Below are positions 14,531 through 37,431 of a stretch of DNA of 64,000 nucleotides, piece after piece. The position numbers and the translations under genes were made by a program. The first letter of the stretch is position 1. Every line of letters starts with the position of its first letter. Origin of the DNA: a virus. A model generated the notes under the pieces. That model saw only the letters and a list, made by a program, of their open reading frames with translations, was not told the origin of the DNA and searched no databases. Location of the stretch: positions 182,690 through 246,689 of the IMG/VR virus record IMGVR_UViG_3300042923_000601; one strand, written 5' to 3'.

Positions 14531-14569
14531 CGTTGACATTAATATAAAACACACGAGAGGATGGCGGAC

Positions 14570-17370: not shown

Positions 17371-17406
17371 AACCGGTAGGGAGCAGATGCCCCTACCGGT
17401 CTTTTA
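17371..17406. terminator. Bidirectional terminator between convergent operons
   Basis: ACCGGTAGGG/CCCTACCGGT, followed by CTTTT on the + strand and by TTTTCTT on the - strand. It separates the + operon ending at 17367 from the - gene ending at 17410. Confidence 0.85.
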
Positions 17407-17409
17407 CGT

Positions 17410-19623
17410 TTAATTTGTGCCGTAGTAATAGTCGTTCATCATCTTGTCCAACTTGTGCTTTGGATATTTCTCCAGATTCAGCGTGTTGAACGTCTCATGG
17501 ATGGTATACAGGACAATCGCTTCATTCAGGATCGTTTTCTTATTCTCCAGAATGTCAACGTGTCCGCTGGACGCTGCTTCTTGTACATACTTACGGGAAC
17601 GACTTACTACCATAGCCTCGAACAAGGACTCAGGCTCATTCAGCCCGGTGTTACCAATACGAGCCTTACCAGCCGATTCTTCAAGAGAAGATTTCATCTT
17701 GTTGAGATCAGATGGAGTCAGCTTGTTCAGGAACTCCTGGTTCTCCTTGTCGCGCTTAGTGGCGCGTTTTTCTTCGTTTTCGATGACTTTAACAACCCGT
17801 TTTTTGATGATCTTGGTTGCATCGTCTTTACCGTTTGCCTTCGAGATGGTTTCCAGCAGCTCTCTTTCGTCGCTATCAAGGAAATCCAGCTCAGTAGGAT
17901 ATTGTCCTTCCTGCAGGCGGACGTGGATTGCATGAGGGATATTAGAAGTTGTCAAGCCATGAGTCTGGTCATAGAGAGCAGATTCCAGGCAAGCGCATTC
18001 CAAATTACCTTTCATGCAGGGGTTGGTTTGAATGGTTTTCTGCAGCACGTTCTTATCGGAATCGTCACCGGTGGTATCACGGACGACGGCACCGATAAAC
18101 CCGATTTCGTCAGCTGTTGCTTCAAACAATGTCAGATAGGACGCGCCGTCAAGGGCGGATTCAACCAGTTCTTCCATTGTACCGTGAGCATCTTCACGGA
18201 ATACTTTCTTCCCGTCGCCGTCTTTACCGGCAGCGAGGTAGCCAGAGAGTTTCTTTTTAGCTGCGGTGAGTTTTGCAATCTTCTTCTCGTCACCTTTAGC
18301 TTTCTTAATACCTTTATCCAAAATGGCGATAGCCTTTTCAACTTCACGAATTGCCGCGATGCGGTCAGAATCCTTTGTTGAACGGAGTGCACGTACTGCG
18401 GCATATCCAAAGACTGCAACCAAAGCTGCCAACGCACCTACTGTTTGTGTGTTATACACCACAAAGGATGGCAGTGCATCAATGAATTTTTGCATATACA
18501 GCTTACCCTTAGGGAGGGAGTAGCCTGCTTTAAGGCGTTCAGCATCAGAAGTTAGAGCTGTAATAAGAGCCTCTTCCTTATCCTCAACTTTCCCACCTGC
18601 TTCGGTCACATAGCCGCCGTTTTCAACTGCGAATATGATATCGTCAGCTGTTTCCAAGTTAAGCTCAGTGGATTCCTGAACTATACCAGCCTGAACAGCT
18701 GCTGCGGTGATCAGGTTTTGAACCTCACCTGTTCTGTCAATCAGGCTTTCCAGTCTGCTGAAAAGGTTCTGGTCGCCATTTGCTTCATTCGCTGCAACCA
18801 GTAACCGCGCTTGAATATCCTGAATATGTGCAATATACATCGACGCGTATTGTGCCTGTACTGGGAGTTTGATCGCGTCGGTTACTGCATTCAGGTACAA
18901 GTTCACGGTGAAGAGAACGGAACTAACGGAGAATCCCGGGATATTGAAAGCTTTGAAGCCCAGTGTAATCAAGTTGGCAACAGAGTCGCCCACTGTGATC
19001 GGAGCGTAGCTTTCAGTGTCCTGCAGTTTAGCGTTGATTGCTTTAGCGACATTAGAAACCGATCCCGCTTGATCCACTTCAGCCATATCCGATTCCGTGA
19101 AGGCACGGTAGGCACTGGATACCAGTTTAATGGTGGAGGAATCGCTGTAGTCGTTTTCCAGCAGGTGCTTGTAGAGTGCGCCGCTATGCTGGGCAAGGCG
19201 GTACGCAGATTCTGCAACGGAAGTCACGATAACGTTGGATTCCTGGATGTGCTTGTTGAAATCCTTAAAGGTCTTGATGTTGTTGTCACTTAGCACCTTG
19301 GTAAATGCAGACTCGAACATCGCTTTCAGCGGATGCGCGTAGTAATCCTTAGTCGATTCATCCAGAAGGAGTGAATCATGGAATACGGAGTAAACGGCTT
19401 CCTGTACAGCATAAATGGCAGCAGCGTCAACTGCATCAGCCTCGTTTACCCAACGTGTAAAGGCGTTGTTTTCCAGCATAGCGTATTCAGCTTCAAGTCC
19501 TTTGAGAGACTCGCTGATGAATTTAGCCTGGGCTTCTCCTTTGAGGCGCTGGTTTTCAATATCGGCTTTCTGACGGTTTCTCAAAGTAGATGCTTCGAGA
19601 ATGAATGAATCCATATCAAACAT
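17410..19623 (-). CDS. Large protein with ILE-A leader; possible virion-internal protein
   Basis: 737 residues; AAAGGGGA upstream of the ATG. The start MFDMDSFILEAS recalls the capsid-targeting leader of T4 internal protein III (from memory, ...QEFIAE-A), with a possible protease site after Glu10. Further sites of the same type occur (YVTEAGG, LTLFEATADE, ESLFEAMV). The body is mainly helical, with one good membrane-like segment (TVGALAALVAVFGYAAVRAL) followed by a Lys-rich coiled-coil region. No enzymatic motif. It lies beside baseplate genes but has its own leader. A packaged protein that may insert into a membrane is one reading; it could equally be an ordinary structural protein. Confidence 0.75.
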   Translation of the reverse strand: MFDMDSFILEASTLRNRQKADIENQRLKGEAQAKFISESLKGLEAEYAMLENNAFTRWVNEADAVDAAAIYAVQEAVYSVFHDSLLLDESTKDYYAHPLKAMFESAFTKVLSDNNIKTFKDFNKHIQESNVIVTSVAESAYRLAQHSGALYKHLLENDYSDSSTIKLVSSAYRAFTESDMAEVDQAGSVSNVAKAINAKLQDTESYAPITVGDSVANLITLGFKAFNIPGFSVSSVLFTVNLYLNAVTDAIKLPVQAQYASMYIAHIQDIQARLLVAANEANGDQNLFSRLESLIDRTGEVQNLITAAAVQAGIVQESTELNLETADDIIFAVENGGYVTEAGGKVEDKEEALITALTSDAERLKAGYSLPKGKLYMQKFIDALPSFVVYNTQTVGALAALVAVFGYAAVRALRSTKDSDRIAAIREVEKAIAILDKGIKKAKGDEKKIAKLTAAKKKLSGYLAAGKDGDGKKVFREDAHGTMEELVESALDGASYLTLFEATADEIGFIGAVVRDTTGDDSDKNVLQKTIQTNPCMKGNLECACLESALYDQTHGLTTSNIPHAIHVRLQEGQYPTELDFLDSDERELLETISKANGKDDATKIIKKRVVKVIENEEKRATKRDKENQEFLNKLTPSDLNKMKSSLEESAGKARIGNTGLNEPESLFEAMVVSRSRKYVQEAASSGHVDILENKKTILNEAIVLYTIHETFNTLNLEKYPKHKLDKMMNDYYYGTN

Positions 19624-22345: not shown

Positions 22346-22356
22346 TATTTTCCCTC

Positions 22357-23445
22357 CTATATCCACCGTAGATAGAATCTACCGTTTGATAATTCAATCT
22401 TTGGAGCATTAACGAGTGGAACGCCTATTGTGTCATTTACCCTGTCATATGATGGGTAGTATGAACCAGTGTCGTCCAGTAATTTCATTACCTCGTCTGA
22501 CCGGGATTTCTTTGCAAATCCGGAGATCGTGTTTAATTCAGATAATACAACAGGGTCGAGAATGCCGCTCTTAGACTTCATTGCGTACTCAAAATTGATA
22601 GTATACTCAGAATGTGAGAGCTGATCCTTTGTCGTTGCAAATGCGCTGTCAGGGCGGTTCTTAGGGAATACACCCTGGAGCTTCTCCCAGTATACCAGCT
22701 CAGATCCGTCTGCTTTTGTTACAAGGTAATACATAGATACAGCATAATCCAGAATACCATGCTCGATGTAGTAATCCTTAGGAGCCATATCGCCCAAGAA
22801 CACCATTTCAATGTAATCTGTCCACAGGGCAATGGTCTTATATACCGGAAGGAATTTGCTATCATGTAAGGTCAGTGAGAAGGAACCCGCCGACCTAGAA
22901 TGTATCGCATGCTTCCCGTACTTGATCTTCATACCATGATGCGTTTCGCCCTTTTCGAGTGTATCCAGTGACTGATCCTCTGGACTAAACCCCGTGCAGA
23001 AGTTTGTGAAGATTGGCATGTATGCATTAGGGAACCCTGTGTTCTGCTGGAGCATAGCAAGGTTCTCTTTATCAACCGCCGTCCCGTTACGAGCAAGTTC
23101 CCTAAAAGCAAGCCGGGATGCTGTCTGTTGGTTCATGTTAAGCTGAGTTAGATTCTTTTCGTCAAAGATATTAAGGTCGGGTCTGGTCATGAAGATGTAT
23201 CCTCGATGTCCACCTGGCCATAGGTATCCTTCCGGTAAATCAAACCGGTTGAACTTCGTTAAGTGATGGAGATACCCATCACCACTAACTGAGTCGTCAG
23301 AGCTGAGCCCTTTACCGGGATATAAAAGCGCCTGACCATCTGCATTCATTGCAAACTGAGCAAGCGTACCGGAGTATTGCACTGGAGCTTTGGGTGTCAT
23401 CATTGATGCAGTACTGACCGTTTTACCGTCTACGATATTAGCCAT
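22357..23445 (-). CDS. Virion structural protein, probably tail/baseplate
   Basis: 362 residues from ATG 23445 (AAAGGAG about 10 bases upstream; the in-frame start at 23463 lies before that site). Aromatic-rich beta protein (GYLWPGGHRGYIFMTRPDLN; FYLRWI C-terminus) with no enzyme motif. It is the first gene of the minus operon that continues into the large gp6-like protein, 11 bases away, so a tail or baseplate role is likely by context only. Confidence 0.7.
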   Translation of the reverse strand: MANIVDGKTVSTASMMTPKAPVQYSGTLAQFAMNADGQALLYPGKGLSSDDSVSGDGYLHHLTKFNRFDLPEGYLWPGGHRGYIFMTRPDLNIFDEKNLTQLNMNQQTASRLAFRELARNGTAVDKENLAMLQQNTGFPNAYMPIFTNFCTGFSPEDQSLDTLEKGETHHGMKIKYGKHAIHSRSAGSFSLTLHDSKFLPVYKTIALWTDYIEMVFLGDMAPKDYYIEHGILDYAVSMYYLVTKADGSELVYWEKLQGVFPKNRPDSAFATTKDQLSHSEYTINFEYAMKSKSGILDPVVLSELNTISGFAKKSRSDEVMKLLDDTGSYYPSYDRVNDTIGVPLVNAPKIELSNGRFYLRWI

Positions 23446-23529
23446 GTATTCCACTCCTTTCATTGATCTAGGTGGTATTTATGGTATGTCCTGATGATAC
23501 GCATGTGTATAATCATCTATATATTGGAC

Positions 23530-24151: not shown

Positions 24152-25291
24152 ATGATCATCGAACAGCTTATCACGTTCGGTAAGATGATGCAGAAAGAAT
24201 GGTCACTTATCACGAGCAAGACTCATGTCAACTTTGGTCAAAGTCCGACGCGGAATAAATCCATATCGTCACTTGCCAATGACAGTACTTATTTTTACCC
24301 GGTTGTAGGCTCGGAATACCTTTCCGCCGATGAACTGGTTATGCTCACTCGGGCATTTGAACGGTCGTATGCCGTATTCACCCGTACAGCATTCTCTCTC
24401 ATCCCGGCAGTTGAGGTTCCAAGTTTCACGAATGCCACCGTTCGTAACTACCTCACCCAGTTCCATACAAACATGAACACGGTTCCTAACTGGGGCGGTA
24501 CGATTGACAAGAATAATGGATTCACACTCAATGAAACGTCTCTTAATGAGGCATCAACGGGTGGCCCTGACCCTATCGGCGGTCCACTGGGGCCGATTGA
24601 AACAAACGTTAAACGGGCAGAGCCATTTAAAAAGGCAACTACTCTTTTTTCGGATTTGGATTGGAAGAAAGCAAACGATATGTTACCTACCACTATGCAA
24701 GTGCCTGTTAAATTTGTGTCTAGGGACACAAAGGCAGAGGCGGTTGTCGATGTTATGGTAAATATCAAGGCAACAATGCACCGCTCGGCGTCAAGCCCGC
24801 TGGTACAGGACATTGCCAACAGCGTTAACGGCAAGAGAGGACTTCTGAACTTCGTTAAATGGTTCTCCGGTGAACAAAAATCATTGTCGGACTTGCTGTT
24901 TGGTGTTAGCCAGATGAAGTTCGATATTCAGAATAAGAAAGCCAGCCCTTGGGTTGAGGCGTTTAAACGCCGCGCTCGTCTGGCTCAGGGTGGATCGGCT
25001 ATGCTGATGAACAACCTGAAACCAATCGCAACCCTTTGTGTAACCATGAACGAAGTTAACGCTCTGAAAACGCAATACGACATTGATGTTTTTAAAGACG
25101 TTAAGAAAATCATGGACGCTTACTACCTGCTCGGATTCTGCATCGTTGACCAAGTGAACGAAGTCGTATACGTTCGTTACGACTCACAGGTTGACTTTCA
25201 AGAGTTCCCATACAAAACACTGGAACGCGAAGCAGCCAGCCAAGACCGTACCCTTAAGGATATGGTTAAAGCTATGGGCGCACTTCGCTAA
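24152..25291 (+). CDS. Probable virion or accessory structural protein
   Basis: 379 residues, ATG with GAAGGAGGG upstream. A flexible Gly/Pro-rich stretch around residues 132-150 (ASTGGPDPIGGPLGPIE) splits the protein in two. It is preceded by SLNE-AS, which fits the (L/I)xE-A cleavage type. The C-terminal half is compact and basic. It heads the + operon that runs into the putative internal-protein cluster. A DATAATATACTTA-like AT motif lies at 24117-24129. No known family. Confidence 0.65.
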   Translation: MIIEQLITFGKMMQKEWSLITSKTHVNFGQSPTRNKSISSLANDSTYFYPVVGSEYLSADELVMLTRAFERSYAVFTRTAFSLIPAVEVPSFTNATVRNYLTQFHTNMNTVPNWGGTIDKNNGFTLNETSLNEASTGGPDPIGGPLGPIETNVKRAEPFKKATTLFSDLDWKKANDMLPTTMQVPVKFVSRDTKAEAVVDVMVNIKATMHRSASSPLVQDIANSVNGKRGLLNFVKWFSGEQKSLSDLLFGVSQMKFDIQNKKASPWVEAFKRRARLAQGGSAMLMNNLKPIATLCVTMNEVNALKTQYDIDVFKDVKKIMDAYYLLGFCIVDQVNEVVYVRYDSQVDFQEFPYKTLEREAASQDRTLKDMVKAMGALR

Positions 25292-25308: not shown

Positions 25309-26253
25309 ATGCACGATCAGTTGCTACTCTTTGAGCATATTAAAGAGCATTACGATGCTCCTATGCGGTCACGCTTTATGAGCATGACTGAAGCAGAGCA
25401 GGTTACGGTGGGGCGGAATCTGGTAGACAGAATCTATGTCACCATCGCCGAGAAGTATAATGAAGTCGATTTCGAGAATATTCCGGCATCCAAAGGTGAC
25501 ATCACCAAGCTGCCTGAGTATGCTAACCTCAAAGCGTCTCTTACCCTTCTGGCCGAGATCGAGAAAAGTTCGAATCAATCGATCCCGGAGATTAAGGTCC
25601 TGACTGACGCACTTCAATATTTGGAGATGTTCTCTAGCGACTTCTATATGGGATTCGTTAAGAAGAATGCTTCGATTATCATGACCTATAACCTTCTTGC
25701 AATGTCGGTTATTTGCGGGACATCCTTGATGATCTCCGTTCTGGTTGATTACGTCAACCTGGGTAACACCGACAGCGTACAGGTAATCATCAATACCAAA
25801 TACCGTAAAGGTCAAAAGTACCTACTGATCGATTCTTTGAATCAGTTCTGTGTACAGGCCAGAAACGGTGCATTCAAACGCAACCTTACTGCAATGGCTA
25901 AACCGGCTCCAATCCAAGAAGCTGTGCTTACATCCATTGCATTCTACTCTGCAGCTGTATTTGCAGCCTTCACTATTATCCCTCTGATTAAAGAATTGAT
26001 CTATCTCTTCTACTTCAGCCGGATGAAAATCAGTGAGGCTGCAAAAATTCAGGCTGATCTTCTGAATGCTAACATTCAGTCGGTTCAGGCTTCGGGGAAA
26101 GCGACAGATAAGATGGTTCGCATCCAAAGCTGGTTTGCGGATAAGCTGTCTAAGATTTCCCATGTATTCGCTTTTAACTATGAAAAGAATGAGCGGAAGG
26201 CACAGGCTGAAGCAAAAGCCAAGCTTACCCAATCCGATATCGTTCTCTTCTAA
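25309..26253 (+). CDS. Integral membrane protein, unknown function
   Basis: 314 residues, AAAGGAGGG upstream. There are two hydrophobic segments: around residues 124-147 (LLAMSVICGTSLMISVLVDY) and 205-230 (SIAFYSAAVFAAFTIIPLIK). A long C-terminal charged helix follows (KNERKAQAEAKAKL). It is 17 bases after the previous gene and ends in a hairpin. A phage protein with two spans in a structural operon might be a virion-borne channel or a host-membrane factor; neither can be shown. Confidence 0.7.
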   Translation: MHDQLLLFEHIKEHYDAPMRSRFMSMTEAEQVTVGRNLVDRIYVTIAEKYNEVDFENIPASKGDITKLPEYANLKASLTLLAEIEKSSNQSIPEIKVLTDALQYLEMFSSDFYMGFVKKNASIIMTYNLLAMSVICGTSLMISVLVDYVNLGNTDSVQVIINTKYRKGQKYLLIDSLNQFCVQARNGAFKRNLTAMAKPAPIQEAVLTSIAFYSAAVFAAFTIIPLIKELIYLFYFSRMKISEAAKIQADLLNANIQSVQASGKATDKMVRIQSWFADKLSKISHVFAFNYEKNERKAQAEAKAKLTQSDIVLF

Positions 26254-26314: not shown

Positions 26315-26758
26315 ATGTTTAATACAATCCTCGAAAATGCAACAATGCCCAAGCCATTGGTATTCCTTGGTGGCACGTGCGGCGATTCCAAGTGGCGCGA
26401 GGTACTCATGCCACAATTGGAGATCGATTACTTCAATCCGGTTGTCGATGACTGGAAGCCTGAGGATCAGGAAAAGGAACTTGAGGTTCGTGCTAAAGCG
26501 GACTATCTCCTTTACGTGATCACACCTAAGGCATCCGGTATGTATTCGGCGGCTGAGGTTGCAGATGACAGTAACAAGAGACCTAAGAAAACGATATTCT
26601 GCTATCTGGCAAGTGACGGTGGGTCAATATTCACAGCTGAACAAGTCAAGTCGATGGATTCAATCGGTAGACTGGTTGAGGCTAACGGTGGAACATGGCT
26701 TAAGTCACTGGAAGAGGTCGTCAAGACCTTAAACATGACGCCGTATTTGAATTTGTGA
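26315..26758 (+). CDS. Nucleoside 2-deoxyribosyltransferase-like enzyme with extra N-terminal leader
   Basis: 147 residues from ATG 26315 (AGAGGTGAGA upstream; the earlier in-frame ATG 26300 overlaps that site). VFLGGTCGDSKWRE, YFNPVVDDW, ADYLLYVITPKASGMYSAAE and DDSNKRPKKTIFC match the nucleoside 2-deoxyribosyltransferase-like family, which exchanges or removes bases on deoxynucleosides or nucleotides. The core begins at about residue 13. The preceding MFNTILENATMP is an extension not needed by the enzyme, and it resembles the MF..I.E starts of the neighbouring genes. That suggests targeting to the head or another shared site. It heads the run of Met-Phe genes. Confidence 0.8.
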   Translation: MFNTILENATMPKPLVFLGGTCGDSKWREVLMPQLEIDYFNPVVDDWKPEDQEKELEVRAKADYLLYVITPKASGMYSAAEVADDSNKRPKKTIFCYLASDGGSIFTAEQVKSMDSIGRLVEANGGTWLKSLEEVVKTLNMTPYLNL

Positions 26759-26773
26759 AAGGAGGAGTAACGA

Positions 26774-27727
26774 ATGTTTCATGATATTATCAGAGAAACC
26801 AACCAACTTTTTCATCCAGAAGGTATAACCGAATCTGTAACCGAAAGCCGGTACAATTTGCTTAGCTATCTGTCTGAAATGGCAACACTGCCTTTACATA
26901 CCCACGGGGTACTGTCCGAGGCCGATGTACCCGATATTGTCGGAAAACAGAAAGGTATCATTCGCCGGTTGATTGAATTTTTTGCCCGGATGATTCACAA
27001 TATCAAAACCCGTATTACGGCTCGGTTCCAGTCGGCTGAGGAGCGTCTCAATACGCTTCAGAAGTATCTGAGAACCATCGATCATCGAGCCATTCAAATC
27101 AATACCCGTATGAAGATTAATTCTTTCGATCGGGTTCTGGATACGGTGTTTAAAATCGAAGATGAACTTAGAGCAAACCAGCTCAATAACCTCATGGAGA
27201 CATTCTTTAAAATGGGGAAGGTTGAGAAGGGGATGGAAGTTATCAAAGCCGCTGCAACCAAGGGTAAATCCATTGCAGAACGGTTTTCTGGCTACGTTCC
27301 TTCTATGGTGAAATACAACGGCAAGAATGTGGAGCAAATCCGCGATGAGTTACTCGGTGAGATTGGCCCAACGACCAATATTCAAACCGAGAAATTCTTC
27401 TCCAACCTTGAACGTGGCAAGAAGTTTAAGAACGAACTGGATAAACTAGTGGCTGAATACAGTAAGGTATTGAACGGTCTGTCGGCAGCCGCTGAGGCAT
27501 CTGATAAGATGCAATCAATCGGTCCTAACGGTCAGCACATGTTCAATAGCATTGTAAACACCATGACATCGTTCTTTAACCGCAACGTTCATTTGGTTAC
27601 AAGTCTGGTACTTGAAATTATTGATACAACTCAAACCGCAGCATTTCGAATGGTAGCAACTGCTAACACCCTCGGTCTGGCAGGTGCAGCTGAAGTGTTG
27701 CGCTCAGTAAGACCCGATAAGAAATAG
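26774..27727 (+). CDS. Putative head-internal protein, family member 1
   Basis: 317 residues, GAAAGGAGGAG upstream. Leader MFHDIIRETN...; strongest cleavage-type site VLSE-AD at residues 46-51. Then the basic amphipathic helix IIRRLIEFFARMIHNIKTRI, common to the family, and a helical body. It has the same ground plan as the genes at 27742, 28605, 29417, 30573, 31824, 35226 and 14570. T4-type head proteases cut after (L/I)xE, so the leader would be removed in the maturing head. The protein has no enzymatic motif; its role after ejection or in the head is unknown. Confidence 0.7.
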   Translation: MFHDIIRETNQLFHPEGITESVTESRYNLLSYLSEMATLPLHTHGVLSEADVPDIVGKQKGIIRRLIEFFARMIHNIKTRITARFQSAEERLNTLQKYLRTIDHRAIQINTRMKINSFDRVLDTVFKIEDELRANQLNNLMETFFKMGKVEKGMEVIKAAATKGKSIAERFSGYVPSMVKYNGKNVEQIRDELLGEIGPTTNIQTEKFFSNLERGKKFKNELDKLVAEYSKVLNGLSAAAEASDKMQSIGPNGQHMFNSIVNTMTSFFNRNVHLVTSLVLEIIDTTQTAAFRMVATANTLGLAGAAEVLRSVRPDKK

Positions 27728-27741
27728 AAGAGGTGACGATC

Positions 27742-28584
27742 ATGTTCGACTTCAATTCAGGTGAAGTTTACAAAAAGGTTCCAGGGCTTACACTTGAAGA
27801 TGCTATTACAGCTATTCAGGAGAGTAGCTTGTCTCTATCAACTACACCGGCTGGTGACCAGAACACCGGTCAGTCCCTGCTTGTAAGAGTGAAAGAAATC
27901 TTTGAAAAGATTAAAACCAAGGTCATGGCTTTTGTCAACGGATTATTGAAAAAGCTCCGGCTTAATTCTGCGGGCAAGCTTGACTTCATTAAGAAAAATG
28001 AAGCCCGCATTAAGAACTACTCCAAGCCTCATATGATATCCATGCCTAAGAATTTGGCCAATCCACTGAAGCCATACAGTGCAAAGCTAATATGGGCACG
28101 CATTGTGGATGCAGGCCAGCGCATGGGTGTTATTGGCACACTGGCTAGGGATGAAGAAACGATCAGAAAGATGCATGCTAAGTATACCGATGAGATCATC
28201 ATGAATGTACTGGCTGGTATGGTTACTGATCCCGATGCAAAACTCCTTACAGATGAAATCATCTATGCTGAATACGTCGGTAAGGATGCGAGCATTGATA
28301 TCAGTAAACTGAACAAGGAAGCCTTGATCCAACAGGCTGTACAACTCCATGCTGACTTTGAGGAATTTGCTAAGCAGCGCGGCGAATACTCCAAGTTTTT
28401 GGATACCATAACTCGCGATAACAAATTGTTTGAAGCCGAAAACCGGGTGGCGACCAATATGTTGGTAACGCTGGTTTCCCGGTTTGTAACAGCGACTCTT
28501 CGTTTCACATCGGTTATGAGTAGTGTGTTGATGAAGCGATTCAATGTAATCTATTCTATCCTTCACCGCATGGCTACTCACTAA
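27742..28584 (+). CDS. Putative head-internal protein, family member 2
   Basis: 280 residues from ATG 27742 with GAGGTGA upstream; the start at 27733 overlaps that site. Leader MFDFNSGEVY; candidate cleavage at AIQE-SS (residues 24-29) rather than LTE-A. Then VKEIFEKIKTKVMAFVNGL and the signature FIKKNEARIKNY, ISMPKNL, the best match to the detached member at 14570. The C-terminus is basic and aromatic (MKRFNVIYSILHRMATH). No enzymatic motif. Confidence 0.7.
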   Translation: MFDFNSGEVYKKVPGLTLEDAITAIQESSLSLSTTPAGDQNTGQSLLVRVKEIFEKIKTKVMAFVNGLLKKLRLNSAGKLDFIKKNEARIKNYSKPHMISMPKNLANPLKPYSAKLIWARIVDAGQRMGVIGTLARDEETIRKMHAKYTDEIIMNVLAGMVTDPDAKLLTDEIIYAEYVGKDASIDISKLNKEALIQQAVQLHADFEEFAKQRGEYSKFLDTITRDNKLFEAENRVATNMLVTLVSRFVTATLRFTSVMSSVLMKRFNVIYSILHRMATH

Positions 28585-28604
28585 TCTAAAAAGGAGGAAC
28601 TACT

Positions 28605-29396
28605 ATGTTTAATTTGACATACCAGCCCAATGGTAAAATCTCAGCCATCGACAATAATCTGCGACCTATCAGTATCCAAGAAGCAGTCTTTGAAATCGGG
28701 CAGCTGCGTGTACAACTGATCACAGAAGCCGACGGTGAGGATAAGAAGGCGAAGTTCAAGCGGATCGTCAAAGACCTGATTGCGAAGATCAAAGCCTTCT
28801 TTAAAGGGCTTGCCCTTAAGATTACAAAATCAGCGACTGAACGGGAGAAGTTCGTTCTTGAGAACAAGGGAACGATCCTTAAATACAGCCCTGGTGATGG
28901 CACAGCCAGTATCCCATCGCACCTGTTGAAACCTTCGGTTAAACTAACCACGGGTTTGATCATGTCCGCAACCAGCAAAGTCATTACCCACCCGGACGGG
29001 TTTAACAGTGAGCATGCGATGGAGAACGTACTCAAAATTATCGCCCCATCATACAAAGAAGGGATATCCATATCTGAATTCTTCAGTTTTCTTCATGGGG
29101 AGCAGACGGATGTCCCTCTAAAAAATATTTCTCCGGCGCAATTAATTGATTCATTCCTATCGGACATGAAGTTCCTTAAGGAGCTTGACAAGTGGGAAAC
29201 CAATTTTATTTCATACGCTGAAAGACCAGGCAGTTATGAGATGGATCATGAAAATCCAGAGCTTGTGATTTCGCATATTATTCAATTCGGTATCTCCATC
29301 ACTGATCTTGTATACCGGACTGTCATACATGCGACTAATGTGAAGTTCTCCCTTCTCAAAGCAATGGAATCTGCAGCTAACGATCGCGACAACTAA
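28605..29396 (+). CDS. Putative head-internal protein, family member 3
   Basis: 263 residues, AAAGGAGGAAC upstream. Leader contains SIQE-AV (residues 23-28) and QLITE-AD (38-43), both (L/I)xE-A sites. The helix FKRIVKDLIAKIKAFFKGLA and signature FVLENKGTILKY, then SIPSHLLKPS, place it with 27742 and 14570. The body is helical and no catalytic residues are recognised. Tightly packed between neighbours of the same family (20-base gaps). Confidence 0.7.
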   Translation: MFNLTYQPNGKISAIDNNLRPISIQEAVFEIGQLRVQLITEADGEDKKAKFKRIVKDLIAKIKAFFKGLALKITKSATEREKFVLENKGTILKYSPGDGTASIPSHLLKPSVKLTTGLIMSATSKVITHPDGFNSEHAMENVLKIIAPSYKEGISISEFFSFLHGEQTDVPLKNISPAQLIDSFLSDMKFLKELDKWETNFISYAERPGSYEMDHENPELVISHIIQFGISITDLVYRTVIHATNVKFSLLKAMESAANDRDN

Positions 29397-29416
29397 TATT
29401 AAAGGAGGAAACCAAA

Positions 29417-30499
29417 ATGTTTACTTACGATAAAGAAGTTGTAAACTCCATTCAAGAGACCTCGGGTAACATGTCGCTGTACGAGTCTGTTCTTGCCCTG
29501 CATGAGGCGACTATCAATCCTCTGCTTACAATGAACACCCTCTCCAGTGCATACCGTCTTCAATTGGAGTCTGTTTTGGAAGAAAACGGCCGTGTGTTTA
29601 ACGATGCCGTAAAGGCGGTTTTGACCGAAGCGACAAAGGATATGACGAACCAGCTGACTGCAGATGCTGAGTCGGTGCTGTCTTCTGTGAAGAAGATTAG
29701 ATCGACTCTTTCCACTACCTTGAGTCAGATTAATAAGCAAAACAATGAGGTTGTCACCAAATACGAACCCCTGATTCGCCAGTTGGATGCATCTCGCTCG
29801 GCGTACACGGTTCGTAGTTACAACCTTTCCAACCTTGCAACTAGCGACATCCTTGCTCGGGTTATGTCCTGCGTAGCCAATGATCTGAATCTTGATCCTA
29901 AGCGCATGACAGAACCAACTGCGACCCTTGAGCAGTTGATCGCTGATTACAACAAAATGGGGCAGGATGCTGTACACTGTTTGAAACGCGCCGTCCTTGG
30001 TGTCGCTAATACCGTGGACGTGTCCCAGAACTTCTTCCAAATGGTCACCGATGCGTTGGTTAGCCCAACAGCAACCGAGACCCGTTCGTTCACCAACGAC
30101 ACGTTTGGTACACTGGCAAACATGACAGACGATTTCCAAGCGTCTGAAATGGATGCTGTTGTTGCTGAGCTTGAGAATCACATCAATGAAATCAGAGACC
30201 TGAAGCGCATCAACCTGTCCAGCACAGGTAATGAGTACGGCAACTCTGTCATGGTTCAGTATCTGATTACCCGGAAGATGGCCATTTGCACTGCTCTGAG
30301 TCTGGTTGCTGAGGTTCTTAACACGAAAGCATCCGTCTACGAACAGATGTCAGTTGACTACCGGAAGATCATTATTAACACTTACGAGAAGCTGATTGCT
30401 CCAGCTGGCGGCTTTGTACAGGAAGCATACGATCCACAATCGGATGACCTGATCGGTCTATTCCATATGGAATGTGCTTCCAGTAGCGATTTATTCTAG
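29417..30499 (+). CDS. Putative head-internal protein, family member 4
   Basis: 360 residues, AAAGGAGGAAACC upstream. Longest leader of the set, with sites SIQE-TS (residues 11-16), ALHE-AT (27-32) and AVLTE-AT (68-73). Then helical segments SSVKKIRSTLSTTLSQI and KYEPLIRQLDASRS. Predicted almost entirely alpha-helical. More divergent than members 1-3 but with the same order of features. Codon choice looks like that of a well-expressed late gene. Confidence 0.7.
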   Translation: MFTYDKEVVNSIQETSGNMSLYESVLALHEATINPLLTMNTLSSAYRLQLESVLEENGRVFNDAVKAVLTEATKDMTNQLTADAESVLSSVKKIRSTLSTTLSQINKQNNEVVTKYEPLIRQLDASRSAYTVRSYNLSNLATSDILARVMSCVANDLNLDPKRMTEPTATLEQLIADYNKMGQDAVHCLKRAVLGVANTVDVSQNFFQMVTDALVSPTATETRSFTNDTFGTLANMTDDFQASEMDAVVAELENHINEIRDLKRINLSSTGNEYGNSVMVQYLITRKMAICTALSLVAEVLNTKASVYEQMSVDYRKIIINTYEKLIAPAGGFVQEAYDPQSDDLIGLFHMECASSSDLF

Positions 30500-30572
30500 T
30501 AACAGTACATTGATCTCTGTCGATGCAAACATACGATAAATCAAATCCATCATTTTTAGGAGGTAAACACAC

Positions 30573-31721
30573 ATGTTCGATTTCTCTACAGCAGCTCCTG
30601 CTGCATCTGCACCTGTGGGTGAGCTGACATTCGAATCTTTCAACTGGGCATTCCCGGAAGAATTCAGCACTATCCTGCAGGAACAAACGTCCCGCATTGA
30701 GCGCACTGTCGGTGACTACCGCTCTGTAATGGCAGCTGTTCTGACTGAAAGCGCTGGCGCTATCAATGAGAACGTTGTTGCTGTCATGGAAGCAGCTAAC
30801 GAAGACGCTCCTAACAAAGTTATGGCCGCCCTTCAAAAGCTGAAAGCCATGATCATCAATCTGGCAAGAAACATCATGACTCGCATTCAGACTATGATTA
30901 CGAGCAATGAAAAAGCTCTTGCTCTGCGTGAAAAGGCTAAGGATTCCGGCGCTGTCGGTAAACTGAAAGCCGAAATGTACGACTACCATCTGGATGCTGT
31001 CAACCTTGACGCACTGGCTGGTAACTGGAGCATCATGTACAAAAACAGCCTGTACGATATCTCCAAACCATACAACGAAGGTAATGCCGCAGCTCTGGAT
31101 GCTGAAATCGCAAAAGTATCCGCTGCTAAGCATCAGGCTATCGTACATGTGGTTGCTGCGAAAGCAGTTAAAGGCACCCTGCCTGAAGGCGACTTCTCCA
31201 AAGAAGTAGCAAAACAACTTCGTGGCGGCGGTGAACGCAAATCCGTAACGTTCGACATGCACTACTTCGACGTTCTGGAACAGTTCCCTAAAATTAAAGA
31301 ATCCATCCAGAAAGCTTTCACCGCAATGGAGAAAGAAGTTGACCTGGCAATGGGTATCGTTAAAGAGAAACTGGGCCAGGTGAAGAAGGATGCCAAAACA
31401 CCGGAAGAGAAGAAACATGCAAGCGGCTATGCTGCATATGCAATTGCGACTCGCAAAGTTCTCTCCGCTGGTCTGGATGGCGCAGTTCTCCTGAACAACC
31501 TGAAACTGCAAGCTGCGGTTCAACAGGCAAACGAAGCTAAAGCATTCATCGTGAAAGCTGCTAACTTCAAAGCCGGTAAAGCTGAAGAAGGTTCGCTGCA
31601 GGAAAGCGTAATCGAGCCATTCCTGCCATACCTGGACCTGCCTGACAATGATGACACTTCCATCAGCGCCATTGCTGGCCTGAACGAAAGTGCAGCAGCA
31701 AAAACACCATTCGCTTGGTAA
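30573..31721 (+). CDS. Putative head-internal protein, family member 5 (probably the most abundant)
   Basis: 382 residues with TAGGAGGTAAACACAC before the ATG. The leader is Ala/Pro-rich (STAAPAASAPVGEL); cleavage-type sites are AVLTE-SA (residues 56-61) and ILQE-QT. Then KVMAALQKLKAMIINLARNI and a Lys/Ala-rich helical body. Codon use is visibly more uniform than in neighbours (many AAA, GAA, CTG, GCT), suggesting high expression, and it is followed by a proper terminator. It may be the major internal protein. Confidence 0.7.
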   Translation: MFDFSTAAPAASAPVGELTFESFNWAFPEEFSTILQEQTSRIERTVGDYRSVMAAVLTESAGAINENVVAVMEAANEDAPNKVMAALQKLKAMIINLARNIMTRIQTMITSNEKALALREKAKDSGAVGKLKAEMYDYHLDAVNLDALAGNWSIMYKNSLYDISKPYNEGNAAALDAEIAKVSAAKHQAIVHVVAAKAVKGTLPEGDFSKEVAKQLRGGGERKSVTFDMHYFDVLEQFPKIKESIQKAFTAMEKEVDLAMGIVKEKLGQVKKDAKTPEEKKHASGYAAYAIATRKVLSAGLDGAVLLNNLKLQAAVQQANEAKAFIVKAANFKAGKAEEGSLQESVIEPFLPYLDLPDNDDTSISAIAGLNESAAAKTPFAW

Positions 31722-31739
31722 TCCATCCGCTGTAAATAG

Positions 31740-31768
31740 CACACTGCCCTCCGGGGCAGTGTGTTTTA
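31740..31768 (+). terminator. Rho-independent terminator
   Basis: CACACTGCCC/GGGCAGTGTG with loop TCCG, followed by TTTTAA. Closes the transcript of members 1-5. Confidence 0.8.
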
Positions 31769-31823
31769 ACACGTTTAGCATTCAGGAAACAGTCCATTAA
31801 TACTAGAAGGGAGGCATCGGACC

Positions 31824-32783
31824 ATGTTCGCAGAATATTCAGAACCCACATGGGTATGGGAATCAATAGACGTCTCATCTCTCATAGCGGAAGCCTTTGA
31901 ATCACACGACGAACAGTTCCAGTGTTTTATGGAAACTGCTAATGTTTCAATTATGTATGAGACTTCTTCCATCACCACTCGCTTTACTCAAATTATTGAA
32001 GGTGTTATTCGCCTCATTCGAAAAGCGATTGCACAGTTTATCGCGGGTCTGGATGTTGCCGTCCGGCGAACGGAGGCGCTGATACGAAAATACGAGCCTC
32101 AAATTAAGGCTTTGACTGATGATGATTTAGCAGGTATGGAGTATGACAATGTGACGTATACCATATACCCTGCTGTGCCTGGTGATGTTGACCTGTCTAT
32201 CATCGACTGGGCGTTAAAACAGATGTCATCTGTTATTACCCGAGATACCATGACAACGATCAGGGAACGGGTTGATGCTAAAGTGCCATTTATCCGTGGG
32301 CAGATGATGGGTAAATCCTCACCTGTATCCGAGGTTCAAATTGACAGTACGGTCAAAACCTTATTCAAGAATCCTAGGTTGGTCACTGAAATACCGTTAA
32401 CCAAAGAGGTTCTGGATCGGTTAGTATCCGACCTTAAGATGTATTCCACGGTTCGTTCATCAGTTGAACGTAACGGTGAGGAAGCAGCCAAAACGCTGTC
32501 GAAGTATAAAAAGCTTATTAATTCTATCTACTCTGAGCAGTATACACCTGATGAAAACAAACTGAAGGTGACTGTAAACGGAGTAACATCCGAGGCATCA
32601 GCAAACGGGGCTGTATATCACCGGGAGGCTCAGATGTACTTGACTAACGTGGTACTGGAACTCACATCCTTGTACTCAACTTTAATCAACGAGAAACTTA
32701 TTGCGTTAAAAGATAAGTTTGAGCATGATCAATTAATGCTCAGAGCAGTTATTGTTCTTATTCAAGATGGAGGGAGAAAGTAG
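31824..32783 (+). CDS. Putative head-internal protein, family member 6
   Basis: 319 residues, GAAGGGAGG upstream. Leader has LIAE-AF (residues 20-25), very like the T4 IPIII site FIAE-A (from memory), and QIIE-GV (56-61). Then the amphipathic helix IRLIRKAIAQFIAGLDVAV and RTEALIRKYEPQIKAL, which parallels KYEPLIRQL of member 4. Helical throughout. Its stop is two bases before the next gene's start. Confidence 0.7.
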   Translation: MFAEYSEPTWVWESIDVSSLIAEAFESHDEQFQCFMETANVSIMYETSSITTRFTQIIEGVIRLIRKAIAQFIAGLDVAVRRTEALIRKYEPQIKALTDDDLAGMEYDNVTYTIYPAVPGDVDLSIIDWALKQMSSVITRDTMTTIRERVDAKVPFIRGQMMGKSSPVSEVQIDSTVKTLFKNPRLVTEIPLTKEVLDRLVSDLKMYSTVRSSVERNGEEAAKTLSKYKKLINSIYSEQYTPDENKLKVTVNGVTSEASANGAVYHREAQMYLTNVVLELTSLYSTLINEKLIALKDKFEHDQLMLRAVIVLIQDGGRK

Positions 32784-32785
32784 CT

Positions 32786-33451
32786 ATGTTTAATGACATA
32801 ATTACACCTGAGGCCAAGTATCCTGTATTTGTAATTATGAGCCACAGTGGTTCGCTTGTATCGACTGTTATCCGCCGGGTTACAGGCCAACCATACAGCC
32901 ATGCCTCTGTGTCATTTGACCCGTCTCTTAAAGGGATGTATAGCTTTGGGTCGGGGAAACTATCAAGAGTCAACTACATTGTAGGCGGATTTGCCAAAGA
33001 AAACTTCAAAGACTTCAAGTTGTTTGATCCGGAGACTACGTATTCAATGTACGTTGCCTTTGTTGATCGTTATGCTAAAGACGCAATGATTAGCCGACTT
33101 GAAGAAATCACTGCGGCTAACGCTACACGGGAACTCAAGTACAACTTCATTGGACTTTTATATAATGCATTCGGTAAGGTACACGACAGAGGCGATGTGT
33201 ATTTCTGCTCACAGTTTGTTGATACCATTTTGAAAGCCGGAGACATTGGGTTCAAGAAACACTCCTCGCTGGTTAGACCTGCCGACTTCCGTAACTTGAA
33301 GGGATTTCAGTTTGTTACTAAAGGGTTATCGGCGAATTATGATGAGGTTAAGGTTAGAAATAAAGTCCAGGCTATTTCGGAGAAAGAAAACATCACGCCG
33401 TTGTACGAATCCACTATGCCAGCGAATGGCGGGTTCTTCGAATTGATCTAG
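32786..33451 (+). CDS. Permuted NlpC/P60-like (YiiX/C92-type) peptidase or amidase with MF leader
   Basis: 221 residues, GGAGGGAGAA upstream. HSGSLVSTVIRR and PYSHASVSFD carry the putative catalytic His; DVYFCSQFVDTIL carries the putative catalytic Cys. His preceding Cys in this order is the signature of the permuted papain-like YaeF/YiiX (C92) group. Members act on peptide or lipid amide bonds. The core begins at about residue 11; MFNDIITPEA before it resembles the leaders of adjacent internal proteins. If packaged, it would be an enzyme delivered with the DNA. Alternatively it is a wall or membrane-acting late enzyme. Confidence 0.6.
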   Translation: MFNDIITPEAKYPVFVIMSHSGSLVSTVIRRVTGQPYSHASVSFDPSLKGMYSFGSGKLSRVNYIVGGFAKENFKDFKLFDPETTYSMYVAFVDRYAKDAMISRLEEITAANATRELKYNFIGLLYNAFGKVHDRGDVYFCSQFVDTILKAGDIGFKKHSSLVRPADFRNLKGFQFVTKGLSANYDEVKVRNKVQAISEKENITPLYESTMPANGGFFELI

Positions 33452-33460
33452 CCAAAACGC

Positions 33461-33491
33461 AAAAAAAAAACGACCAGCTAGATGCTGGTCG
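33461..33491 (-). terminator. Terminator of the inserted HNH gene
   Basis: Read on the minus strand: CGACCAGC/GCTGGTCG stem then ten T. The HNH stop codon lies in the loop, so the gene carries its own terminator against its neighbours' direction. Confidence 0.85.
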
Positions 33492-34371
33492 TCGTAGTAA
33501 ACTGGTATTGGGTGTAGGTATGTCCCCAATATTTTAATTCTGCATCTTGACGCGCTCGCACTGCATCTTCTAAAGAATCGTATATGCCGACCTTAGTCAG
33601 CTTAGTGTTCTTATCAACGAAGATACCAACGAGATACGTGCCACCTGGGCGTTCGTATACCCCGGCATACCCAGTTTTACTACGGGTAGCTCTCCTATTA
33701 CGCCCCTGTTCTTGACGTGTTGCCCATACACAATTATCTTTACTATAGTTACCGTTAACATCAAGCCTATCAATCGTGTGATAGCTAGATGGGCGATCCC
33801 CCATGTCACGAATAAAGTCGTCAAATGATTCCCACTCAACACGAATGCCGCGCCCGCCGTAGTACTCATAATCCAAACACTTAGGGTTATTACAACGGTA
33901 ATTAATGGCGTTCCATGTTTTCAGTTCAGGTGTTCTGATGTATTTCCCGTATTGAGATTTCTTCGAGCATCCGCATGTTTTAACAGTACCGGATACTAAT
34001 GAACCACTCGGTACGACAACGATTTCACCGCAGTCACATATGCACTGCCACAAGGCGGCTCCTTTTTTATTTTGACCAACCATCTCAATGACTGTCAGGC
34101 TGTTAAATTTGCGACCGGTGTAATCCTTGATGCGGATGCATCCGCATGATTTAGTATGTCCTATTCGGAACATTACACCCGATACTTCAATCATATTGCC
34201 GCATATGCATCTTGCATACCACATGTGACGGTCTTTCCTTTTACGCGAATAGCCTATAATCGTAAGCTTTTCAAGTTTATGTCCTTTGATATTTTGCATT
34301 TGGCGATATTTTGCAACAGCTCTACTCGTCCTTTCCTCAAGGTAGGACTCTTTAAATGCAAGATTCAACAT
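33478..34371 (-). CDS. HNH homing-type endonuclease with AP2 DNA-binding domain
   Basis: 297 residues. Two Cys-rich zinc-binding repeats (CICGNMIEV ... CGC, CICDCGEIVVV ... CGCS) lead to the HNH core GDRPSSYHTIDRLDVNGNYS, then DNCVWAT and a C-terminal AP2 domain (GYAGVYERPGGTYLVGIF). This is the usual layout of free-standing phage HNH-AP2 nucleases that cut a target site and spread by gene conversion. It lies on the opposite strand between two + genes, with its own promoter region and terminator. The N-terminus MLNLAFKESYLEER resembles leaders of two other phage proteins. Confidence 0.9.
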   Translation of the reverse strand: MLNLAFKESYLEERTSRAVAKYRQMQNIKGHKLEKLTIIGYSRKRKDRHMWYARCICGNMIEVSGVMFRIGHTKSCGCIRIKDYTGRKFNSLTVIEMVGQNKKGAALWQCICDCGEIVVVPSGSLVSGTVKTCGCSKKSQYGKYIRTPELKTWNAINYRCNNPKCLDYEYYGGRGIRVEWESFDDFIRDMGDRPSSYHTIDRLDVNGNYSKDNCVWATRQEQGRNRRATRSKTGYAGVYERPGGTYLVGIFVDKNTKLTKVGIYDSLEDAVRARQDAELKYWGHTYTQYQFTTTTSI

Positions 34372-34458
34372 GATGCCACCCCTTTATAATGGTATTCATG
34401 TGCATGATATGTACCTCTATTTTATTACAATGACAAGTTATAAAGGAGATGAAGAATT

Positions 34459-35211
34459 ATGTTTAGAGAGTTAATTAGAGAAGCTGTGTCTGATCCGAAT
34501 AATTTCAATCAAGATGGTAAGATCGCTGCACTTGAGAATGAATTTGGGCATGATCCAGTTGCGTTGGCGGTAAGCTATTCTATTGCTACCAGCCATGAAT
34601 ACTCTACACCTAACGTTGCAGCTGCTATTGCGTTCGTTAAGGATTATGACTGGGAGCAAAGTAGCTGGCGGGTTGACGGCTTGCAAGGCATTAACAAGCC
34701 AATTAATGAAGCTAAGGTCAAAGAGATTGCAAATACGATCAGGGAAAAAGGAAACGACTTCCCGTTGGTTACCGTTGATAAGTTCCATGGTATCACACCC
34801 CAGACACCGGGCAAGCTTTTGCTTATGGATGGTCATCACCGGCAGCACGGTCTTGAGGAAGTTGGCCATGAAACCACCCCAATATATAAGGGAACCTATA
34901 AAGGCCATGACCGGTTGAATGAATCCAGTGATATCGTACTGGAAGCCTTCTTCGGTAAGGGCGAAGTTGCAACTAAACTGCGGTACCTCAATGAGGCCGC
35001 TAAACGGAAGAAAACGATCGAAAAACTCCCGTTGTCTGAGGAGGAGCAGGCTGCAGTGACAGCAAAATATGGACAGCCCGAGTGCAGTTTTCATAAGAAT
35101 GCTGCGACCGGCAAGTACTTCTGTATGACACACAGATATAAGTCAGACGAATTCGATTCGCCGACTGACATCCCAGTTTCTGATGTACAGTTTGTATCCA
35201 GTACATCCTGA
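34459..35211 (+). CDS. ParB-like domain protein with MF leader
   Basis: 250 residues, AAAGGAGATG upstream. The block NKPINEAKVKEIANTIREKG, PLVTVDKF and LLLMDGHHRQHGLEEVG matches the ParB/Srx fold, whose members bind CTP or ATP or act as nucleases. No ParB helix-turn-helix follows, so plasmid partition is unlikely. The start MFRELIREAVS has an IRE-A site at residues 6-9, like the internal-protein leaders. The C-terminal part (ECSFHKNAATGKYFCMTHRY) has paired Cys/His. An enzyme-like cargo protein is possible. Confidence 0.65.
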   Translation: MFRELIREAVSDPNNFNQDGKIAALENEFGHDPVALAVSYSIATSHEYSTPNVAAAIAFVKDYDWEQSSWRVDGLQGINKPINEAKVKEIANTIREKGNDFPLVTVDKFHGITPQTPGKLLLMDGHHRQHGLEEVGHETTPIYKGTYKGHDRLNESSDIVLEAFFGKGEVATKLRYLNEAAKRKKTIEKLPLSEEEQAAVTAKYGQPECSFHKNAATGKYFCMTHRYKSDEFDSPTDIPVSDVQFVSSTS

Positions 35212-35225
35212 TAGGAGTGAATCAC

Positions 35226-36185
35226 ATGATAACGATATATGAGTCGTATGAAATTGAATCTGCCCGCCGTGCGATCATGTACGAGGCCAGTATTCTTACA
35301 ATGAAATCATCGCTCCTTGAGGCTGCCATCACTGCACAACAGCGTGATCTGCTGACAGAGGAGACCCAAGAATCACGAAATCGGTTAGCCGAAGCCGTTC
35401 AACGAATGATCGAGGCGATCCGTAAGCTTACTCAAAAGTTCCAGCACATTGCAGCTACGATGGTGGCTCGCAATGAAAAGTGGCTGGCATCGGTAAAGAC
35501 TAATATCTCTCCGGAGACAATCCGGGATAACTACTCCTTTACGATGTATCCATACTGGACAAATATCCGCGAGGCTGCGACGATGTCTATCCCGTCTTTC
35601 CGGGAGTCAGATTCCACTCTGCTGGATACGCTTCGCGATGCGACTTCTTTTAAAGAGACGTATTTCAAGAAGCTCTTTGTGAATAGCAAGGAAGGTGGCA
35701 CTAGCTTTGATCCCAAGGGGTATTTCCGGGGCGGGGCTGATAAGGTTAACCTTGATAAGCGAGGATTGATCAGTCGCCACACCCAAATGCTATCCTTCAT
35801 TGAGGGGTATGCGGAGACTGTGAAGCGAGTGACCGAGTCTAATAAGCAAATCATGGAGATTCTGGAGCAGGCTTCGATTAAAATTAAATCGGCTCCTCTG
35901 CAGGAATCCAACTTCTTACTTGAAACGGTCATGATGATCCTTGAGGATGGTAAACCTGTTACATCAGGTGAGGTTGAACGAGACAACCCGGATGATAAGG
36001 ACAAGAAGACCGGTTCAAATGGAATATCCGCAAGAGAACTCGCCACAACACGCCAGACATATGGGCAGGTATGCTACGGTGTAAACGCTGCTCGTATGAT
36101 GATCTTGGAAGAGTGCTATGACAACTATGTCAAGGCACTATCTATGGCGCTTGTGAATAAGGTAAAAACAAAAAAACAAGACTAA
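35226..36185 (+). CDS. Putative head-internal protein, family member 7
   Basis: 319 residues from ATG 35226 with TAGGAGTGA upstream; the GTG at 35217 is inside that site. The leader has several candidate sites: IMYE-AS (residues 17-22), SLLE-AA (29-34), LLTE-ET (42-47) and RLAE-AV (53-58). The amphipathic helix AVQRMIEAIRKLTQKFQHIA follows, then RNEKWLASVKTNI. It ends the + operon with KKQD at a bidirectional terminator. It is the only member in the run that starts Met-Ile rather than Met-Phe. Confidence 0.7.
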   Translation: MITIYESYEIESARRAIMYEASILTMKSSLLEAAITAQQRDLLTEETQESRNRLAEAVQRMIEAIRKLTQKFQHIAATMVARNEKWLASVKTNISPETIRDNYSFTMYPYWTNIREAATMSIPSFRESDSTLLDTLRDATSFKETYFKKLFVNSKEGGTSFDPKGYFRGGADKVNLDKRGLISRHTQMLSFIEGYAETVKRVTESNKQIMEILEQASIKIKSAPLQESNFLLETVMMILEDGKPVTSGEVERDNPDDKDKKTGSNGISARELATTRQTYGQVCYGVNAARMMILEECYDNYVKALSMALVNKVKTKKQD

Positions 36186-36210: not shown

Positions 36211-37431
36211 TTATGGTATTTTTATGAACAGTGTACTTGCCCGAAGCGAGAATGCAGAATTCTCAGTTTTCAGGAATATCAAGTGCGCTTCATGGATGCG
36301 GTATTTACCGTTTATCGGATTTAGTTTTTGGAACTTTGCATGAGCATTGATATTGTAGAGTAGGTTTGGTGCAATAGTATCAATGTCAACGTCGAGGAGG
36401 TTGATACCTACCCGATAACGCGCTTCCTTAGAGGCATACTGCAGCTGCTTAGGAACCTTGTTATTGTATACTTGAACCATCTTTTGCATCGCACCATCGT
36501 CGCCTGGGTTCGAGAATACATTCCCGTCAGCATCTACCGCCACGATGTTAGTACCGTCGATGTATTCCCCATGCGTTGCATTCCGGTCAATGATAGGCGA
36601 ACCTGTGATATTAACAATGATCGTTTCATTATCCTTGTAAGAGCCGACGGTTGCCGATTCAGCAGATGCGTATTCTTCCAAGAACATGTTAACCGTGGTT
36701 GGTTTCCCGGCTCTCACAGCCTTACCGGGAGATGATCGGTCCAGTAGATAGTTTTCGTTAATATCCATGTAGAAGATATGCTCTGCATTATAGATACCAT
36801 ATCCAGCGTTTAGATATGACAGTGAATACAGCAGGTTATACGCCGGAATAATGATATTCTGCGCAGCATCACCCGGGATTTTACTCATTAAAAGTGAGCC
36901 GAACCCTCTACTGGAAAACATGTACGCGATCGTTGATGCGATCGTCGTTCCGTTAACAGACACCGACTTTACTTTTTTGTAATTGGTGAGCTTTGTGTTG
37001 TCCATTAAGTAAATCGTAGCATCCATTAACTGCTGAGTGGATGCCCCGTTGATCGTACCGTCGGTGTTATCGGTATCCCCATACATTGCACGGAGTTCAC
37101 TATGCTGCATGTCACTCTCAACCAATATGGAGAATACCTTGGAGAACACCAACTCTTTTGCCTTGATATCAGAGTTATTGATGTATTTATGGATGGAGAC
37201 CTGCATTGTAATCTTGTCAGCACTGGTGGAGAGAAGGCCGTATAACTCCTTCTCCACACCTGCCGTCAGGGTAATGAGCGGAATGATGTTCGTGTCGTAC
37301 TTGTGAAGGATACTGAGTCCTTTAACATGCTCAGCCTGTATGGTGTAGCTGTCGGATGACCCCTTAACCATTACAGCAATGTCCGATATAGAATACCGGA
37401 ACTCGTTTAGTTCTTCTACAGGGCGTAGCAT
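36211..37431 (-). CDS. Virion structural protein, probable tail or baseplate hub
   Basis: 406 residues. Beta-rich and aromatic with no enzymatic motif (YTIQAEHVKGLSILHKYDTN; YSLSYLNAGYGIYNAEHIFY; PNLLYNINAHAKFQKLN). The pattern resembles hub or tail-spike-junction proteins of large myophages. It is the last gene of a minus operon beginning with the PC4-like gene, an unusual neighbourhood for a structural gene. The role is inferred from composition. Confidence 0.6.
   Translation of the reverse strand: MLRPVEELNEFRYSISDIAVMVKGSSDSYTIQAEHVKGLSILHKYDTNIIPLITLTAGVEKELYGLLSTSADKITMQVSIHKYINNSDIKAKELVFSKVFSILVESDMQHSELRAMYGDTDNTDGTINGASTQQLMDATIYLMDNTKLTNYKKVKSVSVNGTTIASTIAYMFSSRGFGSLLMSKIPGDAAQNIIIPAYNLLYSLSYLNAGYGIYNAEHIFYMDINENYLLDRSSPGKAVRAGKPTTVNMFLEEYASAESATVGSYKDNETIIVNITGSPIIDRNATHGEYIDGTNIVAVDADGNVFSNPGDDGAMQKMVQVYNNKVPKQLQYASKEARYRVGINLLDVDIDTIAPNLLYNINAHAKFQKLNPINGKYRIHEAHLIFLKTENSAFSLRASTLFIKIP

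Follow-up and report, generated by a model that had tools for sequence, protein, structure and literature searches.

Eight candidate head-internal proteins with [LI]xE leader sites in an AR9/PBS1-type jumbo phage record, probable diverged relatives of the phiKZ inner-body proteins

In the last 64,000 nucleotides of the IMG/VR virus record IMGVR_UViG_3300042923_000601 (246,689 bp, here G000), bases 182690-246689, which we refer to as the window, lies a cluster of genes whose products start with leaders that end in sites of the T4 prohead protease type. Are these proteins, seven in the cluster and one outlying copy (A-H, Table 1), packed into the phage head, processed there and ejected with the DNA, as an earlier note on the letters of the window had proposed? 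The eight open reading frames (ORFs) proved real and lie where that note had placed them, with the predicted cleavage sites located as claimed. We consider it highly probable that their products belong inside the head of an AR9/PBS1-type jumbo phage and are diverged relatives of the phiKZ inner-body proteins, amplified in a conserved block of head genes.

The window is the terminal part of an AR9/PBS1-type jumbo phage record, with structural genes akin to those of AR9, PBS1, BpSp, SA1 and LPJP1 (flanking proteins compared were ~19-28% identical). A near-identity search among phage records gave no match, nor did IMG/VR scans with single proteins or a tblastn search with protein E; relatives surfaced only when alignments were used. 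Among the records found, G001 and G002 came nearest, their tail tube proteins being 65% and 46% identical to that of G000.

Leader sites, prohead protease and capsid protein

The recurrent sites at the leader ends stood up to counting. Within residues 1-75 of the eight proteins the motif [LI]xE-[AS] occurred 14 times against 0.98 expected (14-fold enrichment, Poisson P=3.7e-12), and the 1963 residues of their bodies held six such sites. All eight proteins had the motif in the leader (8/8) compared with 19 of the 187 other gene calls of G000 that served as background; since these calls came from a crude longest-ORF rule, the background holds some false genes. No leader shuffle reached 14 sites (0/2000, mean 1.8), and the control motifs [LI]xD, [LI]x[KR] and [LI]xQ were not enriched in the same leaders. 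The glutamate of the sites was conserved in the G001 and G002 relatives in 20 of 26 cases versus 24 of 66 for other leader glutamates (Fisher 4.5e-4). In G and H the assignment of the last site is ambiguous. Cut at the last site, the leaders would be 23-73 residues long and all are acidic (net -1 to -8); the basic stretch said to follow them was found in seven of the eight (net +2 to +7 in the first 60 residues past the last site), G having a net charge of -1. The leader consensus [LIFMV]..[LIMVA][ILVMA][RKQ]E, put to a proteome-wide test, does not define a signal.

A protease gene, which a T4-type cleavage system calls for and which the earlier note had proposed to look for elsewhere in the genome, was found there as a head maturation protease (Table 1), and homologues were present in all eight relatives searched. 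The motif also appeared in the major capsid protein, immediately ahead of the segment with homology to AR9, as LEE-S in G000 and G001, LTE-A in G002 and LQE84-S in AR9 itself. Cutting the AR9 protein at LQE84-S gives a predicted mature mass of 49.4 kDa, and the mature capsid protein of PBS1 is ~50 kDa by sodium dodecyl sulfate polyacrylamide gel electrophoresis (PMC5646251). Because the capsid protein played no part in defining the motif, this junction independently supports an LxE rule for the clade. Adjoining the capsid gene, on the minus strand, is a gene for a very acidic, low-complexity protein (G000:C1:67190-67939, L009:13190-13939), a candidate scaffold, whose leader KSLRMIREGG resembles those of some internal proteins, such as A with KLIKEG and its G001 orthologue with QLIREG.

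Table 1. Genes of the cluster, its surroundings and the head loci elsewhere in the record. Coordinates are window positions except where prefixed G000:C1.
Feature	Coordinates	Strand	Sites, matches and remarks
A	14561..15532	+	LTE55-A; outlying copy, outside cluster
B	26774..27727	+	ITE20-S, VTE24-S, LSE49-A; G001 orthologue E=2e-69
C	27742..28584	+	IQE27-S; hhalign 98 to A, 96 to D
D	28605..29396	+	IQE26-A, ITE41-A; hhalign 95 to A, 96 to C
E	29417..30499	+	LYE23-S, LHE30-A, LTE71-A; hhalign 95 to F, 93 to G
F, AR9 gp215 type	30573..31721	+	LTE59-S, VME73-A; hhalign 89 to AR9 gp215 group
G	31824..32783	+	VWE13-S, IAE23-A; hhalign 93 to E, 94 to L031c group
H	35226..36185	+	IYE6-S, MYE20-A, LLE32-A, LAE56-A, MIE63-A; G001 orthologue E=9e-78
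Nucleoside 2-deoxyribosyltransferase-like	26315..26758	+	Begins MFNTIL; PF15891 E=7.6e-11; cargo candidate
Possible papain-like amidase (C92-like)	32786..33451	+	Begins MFNDII; PF05708 E=0.063, below cut-off; same order in G001; cargo candidate
Possible homing endonuclease	33478..34371	-	G000 slot that in G001 holds the A orthologue; identity by eye from sequence
ParB-like	34459..35211	+	Leader MFRELIRE-A; VLE162-A, LNE179-A; PHROG ParB-like 0.0013; cargo candidate
737-residue protein, AR9 gp210 position	17410..19623	-	Begins MF; ILE10-A; similar genes at same position in G001, G002
AR9 gp211 / phiKZ gp87 homologue	19688..22366	-	
Tail tube protein, AR9 gp212 / phiKZ gp88 homologue	22357..23463	-	PF23971 E=7.8e-8
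AR9 gp213 / phiKZ gp89 homologue, left flank	24152..25291	+	PHROG virion structural protein 3e-25
AR9 gp214 homologue, left flank	25309..26253	+	blastp 2e-10; PHROG virion structural protein 8e-15
AR9 gp217 homologue, right flank	36211..37431	-	blastp 2e-13
Major capsid protein	G000:C1:65472-67163		PHROG 7.5e-46
Head maturation protease	G000:C1:68999-69940		AR9 gp113 match 4e-10; PHROG head maturation protease 4e-12

Relationships, fold and genomic slot

The paralogy that had been claimed for the whole set was clear by BLAST only among A, B, C and D (A matching D, C and B); what ties in the remaining members is profile comparison, their relatives and the predicted fold. With hhalign, A-C-D, E-F-G and F-AR9 gp215 were joined at 89-98% (decoys ≤4), and B and H more weakly, with 46 and 52 to A. 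D alone retained 96 and 95. A value of 100 linking D to the AR9 gp216 group was discarded, since it arose from a BpSp sequence present on both sides; the two single sequences, D and gp216, scored 0.4. The signatures F-KN--I--Y and S-PKNL, reported for three members, were found in A and C; in D, PKNL is replaced by PSHL. None of the eight could be assigned with confidence to a family by PHROG or Pfam searches. The phiKZ-type inner-head family, by which we mean PF12699 (phiKZ_IP) with phiKZ gp93, 94, 95, 162 and 163, SPN3US gp53/gp54 and 201phi2-1 gp155-157, reached its best score in G000 with protein A (11.8 bits, E=0.010), below the curated cut-off of 27 bits. As the scores are sub-threshold, we call the eight proteins diverged relatives and not PF12699 members.

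AlphaFold models of A (predicted local distance difference test score, pLDDT, 69; predicted template modelling score, pTM, 0.65) and F (pLDDT 63, pTM 0.60, leader residues 1-77 below 50), whose groups reached an hhalign probability of 3 with each other, showed one common order of elements: a low-confidence leader, a long helix, a short helix, a strand, helices, a second strand and two long helices. In Foldseek searches both models matched the AR9 virion protein A0A172JI05 (268 residues), A0A141HSG3 (368 residues) and proteins named internal head protein. They also matched, at probabilities of 0.90-1.00, 201phi2-1 proteins, namely B3FJ19, 20 and 21 for F and B3FJ18 and 19 for A. The top match of F was the 368-residue protein, which has the length of BpSp gp272 (E=1e-6), and A alone matched the 296-residue AR9 protein A0A172JIC4 (gp216 length). 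These UniProt entries were assigned to genes by length and organism (A0A172JI05 to gp095, A0A141HSG3 to BpSp gp272, A0A172JIC4 to gp216, B3FJ18-21 to gp155-158); B3FJ18-21 have the lengths of 201phi2-1 gp155-158, and gp155-157 are strong PF12699 members. A fold search of the PDB with the models returned generic helical bundles only. AR9 gp095 (L018:29052-29858), the length-matched target of both models, is a virion protein encoded outside the slot described below, with a PF12699 E-value of 0.011; judging by the models, it probably shares the internal-protein fold.

The cluster is flanked by homologues of AR9 gp211-gp214 on one side and gp217/gp219 on the other. Seven of the eight proteins are encoded inside this gp214-gp217 slot and A outside it; in AR9 and BpSp the slot holds gp215/gp216-type genes. 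The flanking genes were matched by phiKZ gp87, gp88 and gp89 (1e-8, 1e-14 and 3e-13), while the match of phiKZ gp90 to them was non-significant. From the gp87-gp89 matches it follows that the phiKZ inner-body genes gp91-97 occupy the same slot. In most IMG/VR loci examined the slot held similar leader-bearing proteins in variable number, from one upward, with ten by count in G001 and at least five in G002, whose contig begins with a gene similar to H; in the slot of Listeria phage LPJP1 we found no such protein. At L031:11738-14124, two adjoining slot genes start with the same 13 residues (MSNLASMIMEGAN), which may be compared with the identical leaders reported in SPN3US gp53/gp54. The A orthologue of G001 (L056:3731-4666) lies within the cluster, between the amidase-like and ParB-like genes, where G000 has a minus-strand gene without a Pfam match that, from its sequence, is possibly a homing endonuclease.

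The earlier note had drawn its analogy with T4, and this holds for the cleavage motif; the proper comparison is the phiKZ inner-body family. The eight resemble that family in the slot after the gp87-gp89 equivalents, in the order of leader, basic helix and helical body, in the fold match and in plastic copy number (PMC5694885). They differ from it in PF12699 scores below the cut-off, in the eight to ten copies, in leaders shorter than the 124-125 residues of SPN3US gp53/gp54, and in a predicted [LI]xE site, as opposed to the published AXE of SPN3US and SXE of phiKZ (PMC5694885). They share the slot between gp214 and gp217 and the layout with AR9 gp215/gp216, BpSp gp272/gp273 and SA1 QPI17163/QPI17162, but at very low sequence identity and with seven copies in the slot plus one outlying instead of two. 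AR9 gp215 is annotated as virion structural, and BpSp gp272 was detected in virions by mass spectrometry (11 peptides, PMC4870245). As in T4 internal proteins and Alt, a short leader would be removed after a Glu motif, although the leaders here are mostly longer; a direct comparison with T4 internal proteins was not made, and none was among the Pfam, PHROG and fold matches listed. The closest known kind is probably the phiKZ inner-head family, here diverged and expanded to eight, with predicted cleavage that is T4-like and not phiKZ-like. A set of eight had been thought unusual, and it is large, but there are precedents, as published PF12699 sets have 2 to 7 members and SPN3US has a separate head paralogue family of 20 (PMC5694885).

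Weighing the readings

The protease, the capsid motif, synteny, fold and the BpSp orthologue in virions all support processed proteins inside the head, as originally proposed, and we regard this as very probable for the eight. It is quite likely that they are relatives of the phiKZ inner-head fold, and rather likely that they are ejected into the host. The acidic N-terminal leader would take each protein into the prohead, where the protease, as the motif predicts, would cut after [LI]xE, often at several places, and remove the leader. The mature helical body would be retained in the capsid beside the DNA, which is supported by the virion detection of relatives, and would leave with the DNA at infection, by analogy with phiKZ, SPN3US and T4. 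Several observations weigh against this. PF12699 scores are sub-threshold across the group (1.1e-5 to 0.35 per genome), and 5 of 14 control genomes also gave E≤1. The hhalign scores to the phiKZ profile are weak, at 29 and 20 for two relatives' groups and ≤4 for the window groups (decoys ≤0.2). The AlphaFold models are of moderate quality with low TM-scores (template modelling scores), mostly 0.25-0.5, and the virion mass spectrometry data come from relatives only. In addition, no phiKZ-like inner body was revealed by bubblegrams in the related phage PBS1, where copies are fewer (PMC5646251), so that the proteins may lie scattered through the DNA and not be gathered in one body, or may be scarce in PBS1.

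In another reading the proteins are head-internal and processed but stay behind as packing, vertex or minor structural proteins of the capsid. In its favour, both PBS1 and phiKZ have density beneath the capsid vertices, and PBS1 lacks the phiKZ-like inner body (PMC5646251). We think this unlikely though far from negligible, as copy number varies greatly among relatives, unlike what a fixed structural role would give, and as the internal head proteins of SPN3US were described as likely ejected by the precedent of T4, P22 and T7 (PMC10052503). Prohead core or scaffold proteins, which enter the prohead and are mostly degraded by the protease and expelled, leaving little in the mature head (cf. 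T4 gp22, gp67 and gp68), might likewise have leaders with several sites, as some do here, and with the acidic gene adjoining the capsid gene this phage seems to have proteins of the core type. Such a role is improbable for the eight, as their sites are concentrated in the leader and sparse in the body, BpSp gp272 is present in mature virions (PMC4870245) and the fold matches are to inner-head proteins that persist. It is very improbable that the motif is a by-product of N-termini that are acidic and helix-rich, no protease being involved: the leaders do have this character, but the shuffles fall far short of the observed count, the control motifs are flat, the site glutamates are selectively conserved and the same motif stands at the capsid junction. 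Equally improbable are tail or tape-measure proteins, to which PHROG gave weak matches (E 0.1-0.6) of a size typical of long helices, whereas the profiles, the synteny and the fold speak for a place in the head.

Enzyme-like genes in the cluster and what the set may mean

Nine of the ten plus-strand genes in 26315-36185 begin with MF, whereas only 7 of 183 other gene calls have MF anywhere in their first 12 residues (binomial 1.7e-12). Three of the nine (26315, 32786 and 34459) are not internal-protein-like but enzyme-like (Table 1), and their order is kept in G001. In G000, G001 and G002 the deoxyribosyltransferase-like gene opens the cluster, with the gp214 homologue immediately ahead of it, and in the ParB-like gene MF..L.REA is invariant in three phages (34459-35211, L056:2968-3726 and L060:17205-18707); in G002 (L060:17205-18707) it lies inside a 500-residue ORF, after a kinase-like region. 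Because the Phe codon is TTT in some genes and TTC in others, and the ribosome-binding site is all that the upstream regions have in common (a Shine-Dalgarno-like sequence precedes the ATG of the cluster genes), the signal looks to be at the protein level, although it may still be an effect on translation start. These observations suggest that the enzyme-like proteins may be co-packaged with the internal proteins. T4 Alt, which is cut at ITE-6 and LTE-619 (PMC5694885) and whose short processed leader is resembled by MFRELIRE-A, is a precedent for such enzyme cargo. That the cluster is an expandable delivery cassette, with the MF N-terminus as a common head-targeting signal through which enzymes of unrelated fold are packaged and injected with the internal proteins, is a tentative idea that we find possible but doubtful.

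Other loci of the record have similar features. The 737-residue protein at the AR9 gp210 position is possibly a further processed head protein. Two tandem paralogues at G000:C1:106611-108015 (L011:16611-17279 and 17326-18015) have LxE-A near the N-terminus and a mutual hhalign of 87%, and are related, in G001, to part of the 732-residue protein at the gp210 position. A 178-residue protein encoded on the minus strand at G000:C1:47619-48155 (L008:11619-12155) has several [LVM]xE-A sites, and its leader is acidic and its C-terminus basic; it was considered as an extra member of the set and set aside, as it has the sites but no profile link, and it is possibly a core or DNA-binding head protein.

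AR9 was noted to be without easily detectable counterparts of many SPN3US and phiKZ proteins (PMC5105663), and the set described here links AR9/PBS1-type jumbo phages, whose heads are poorly annotated, to the phiKZ inner-body system. It also predicts a cleavage rule across the clade that one mass spectrometry run could test. In size the set equals or exceeds the largest PF12699 sets published, which shows how far such expansion can go, and it yields a list of candidate injected proteins; the great variation in number between relatives is as expected if the proteins act on hosts.

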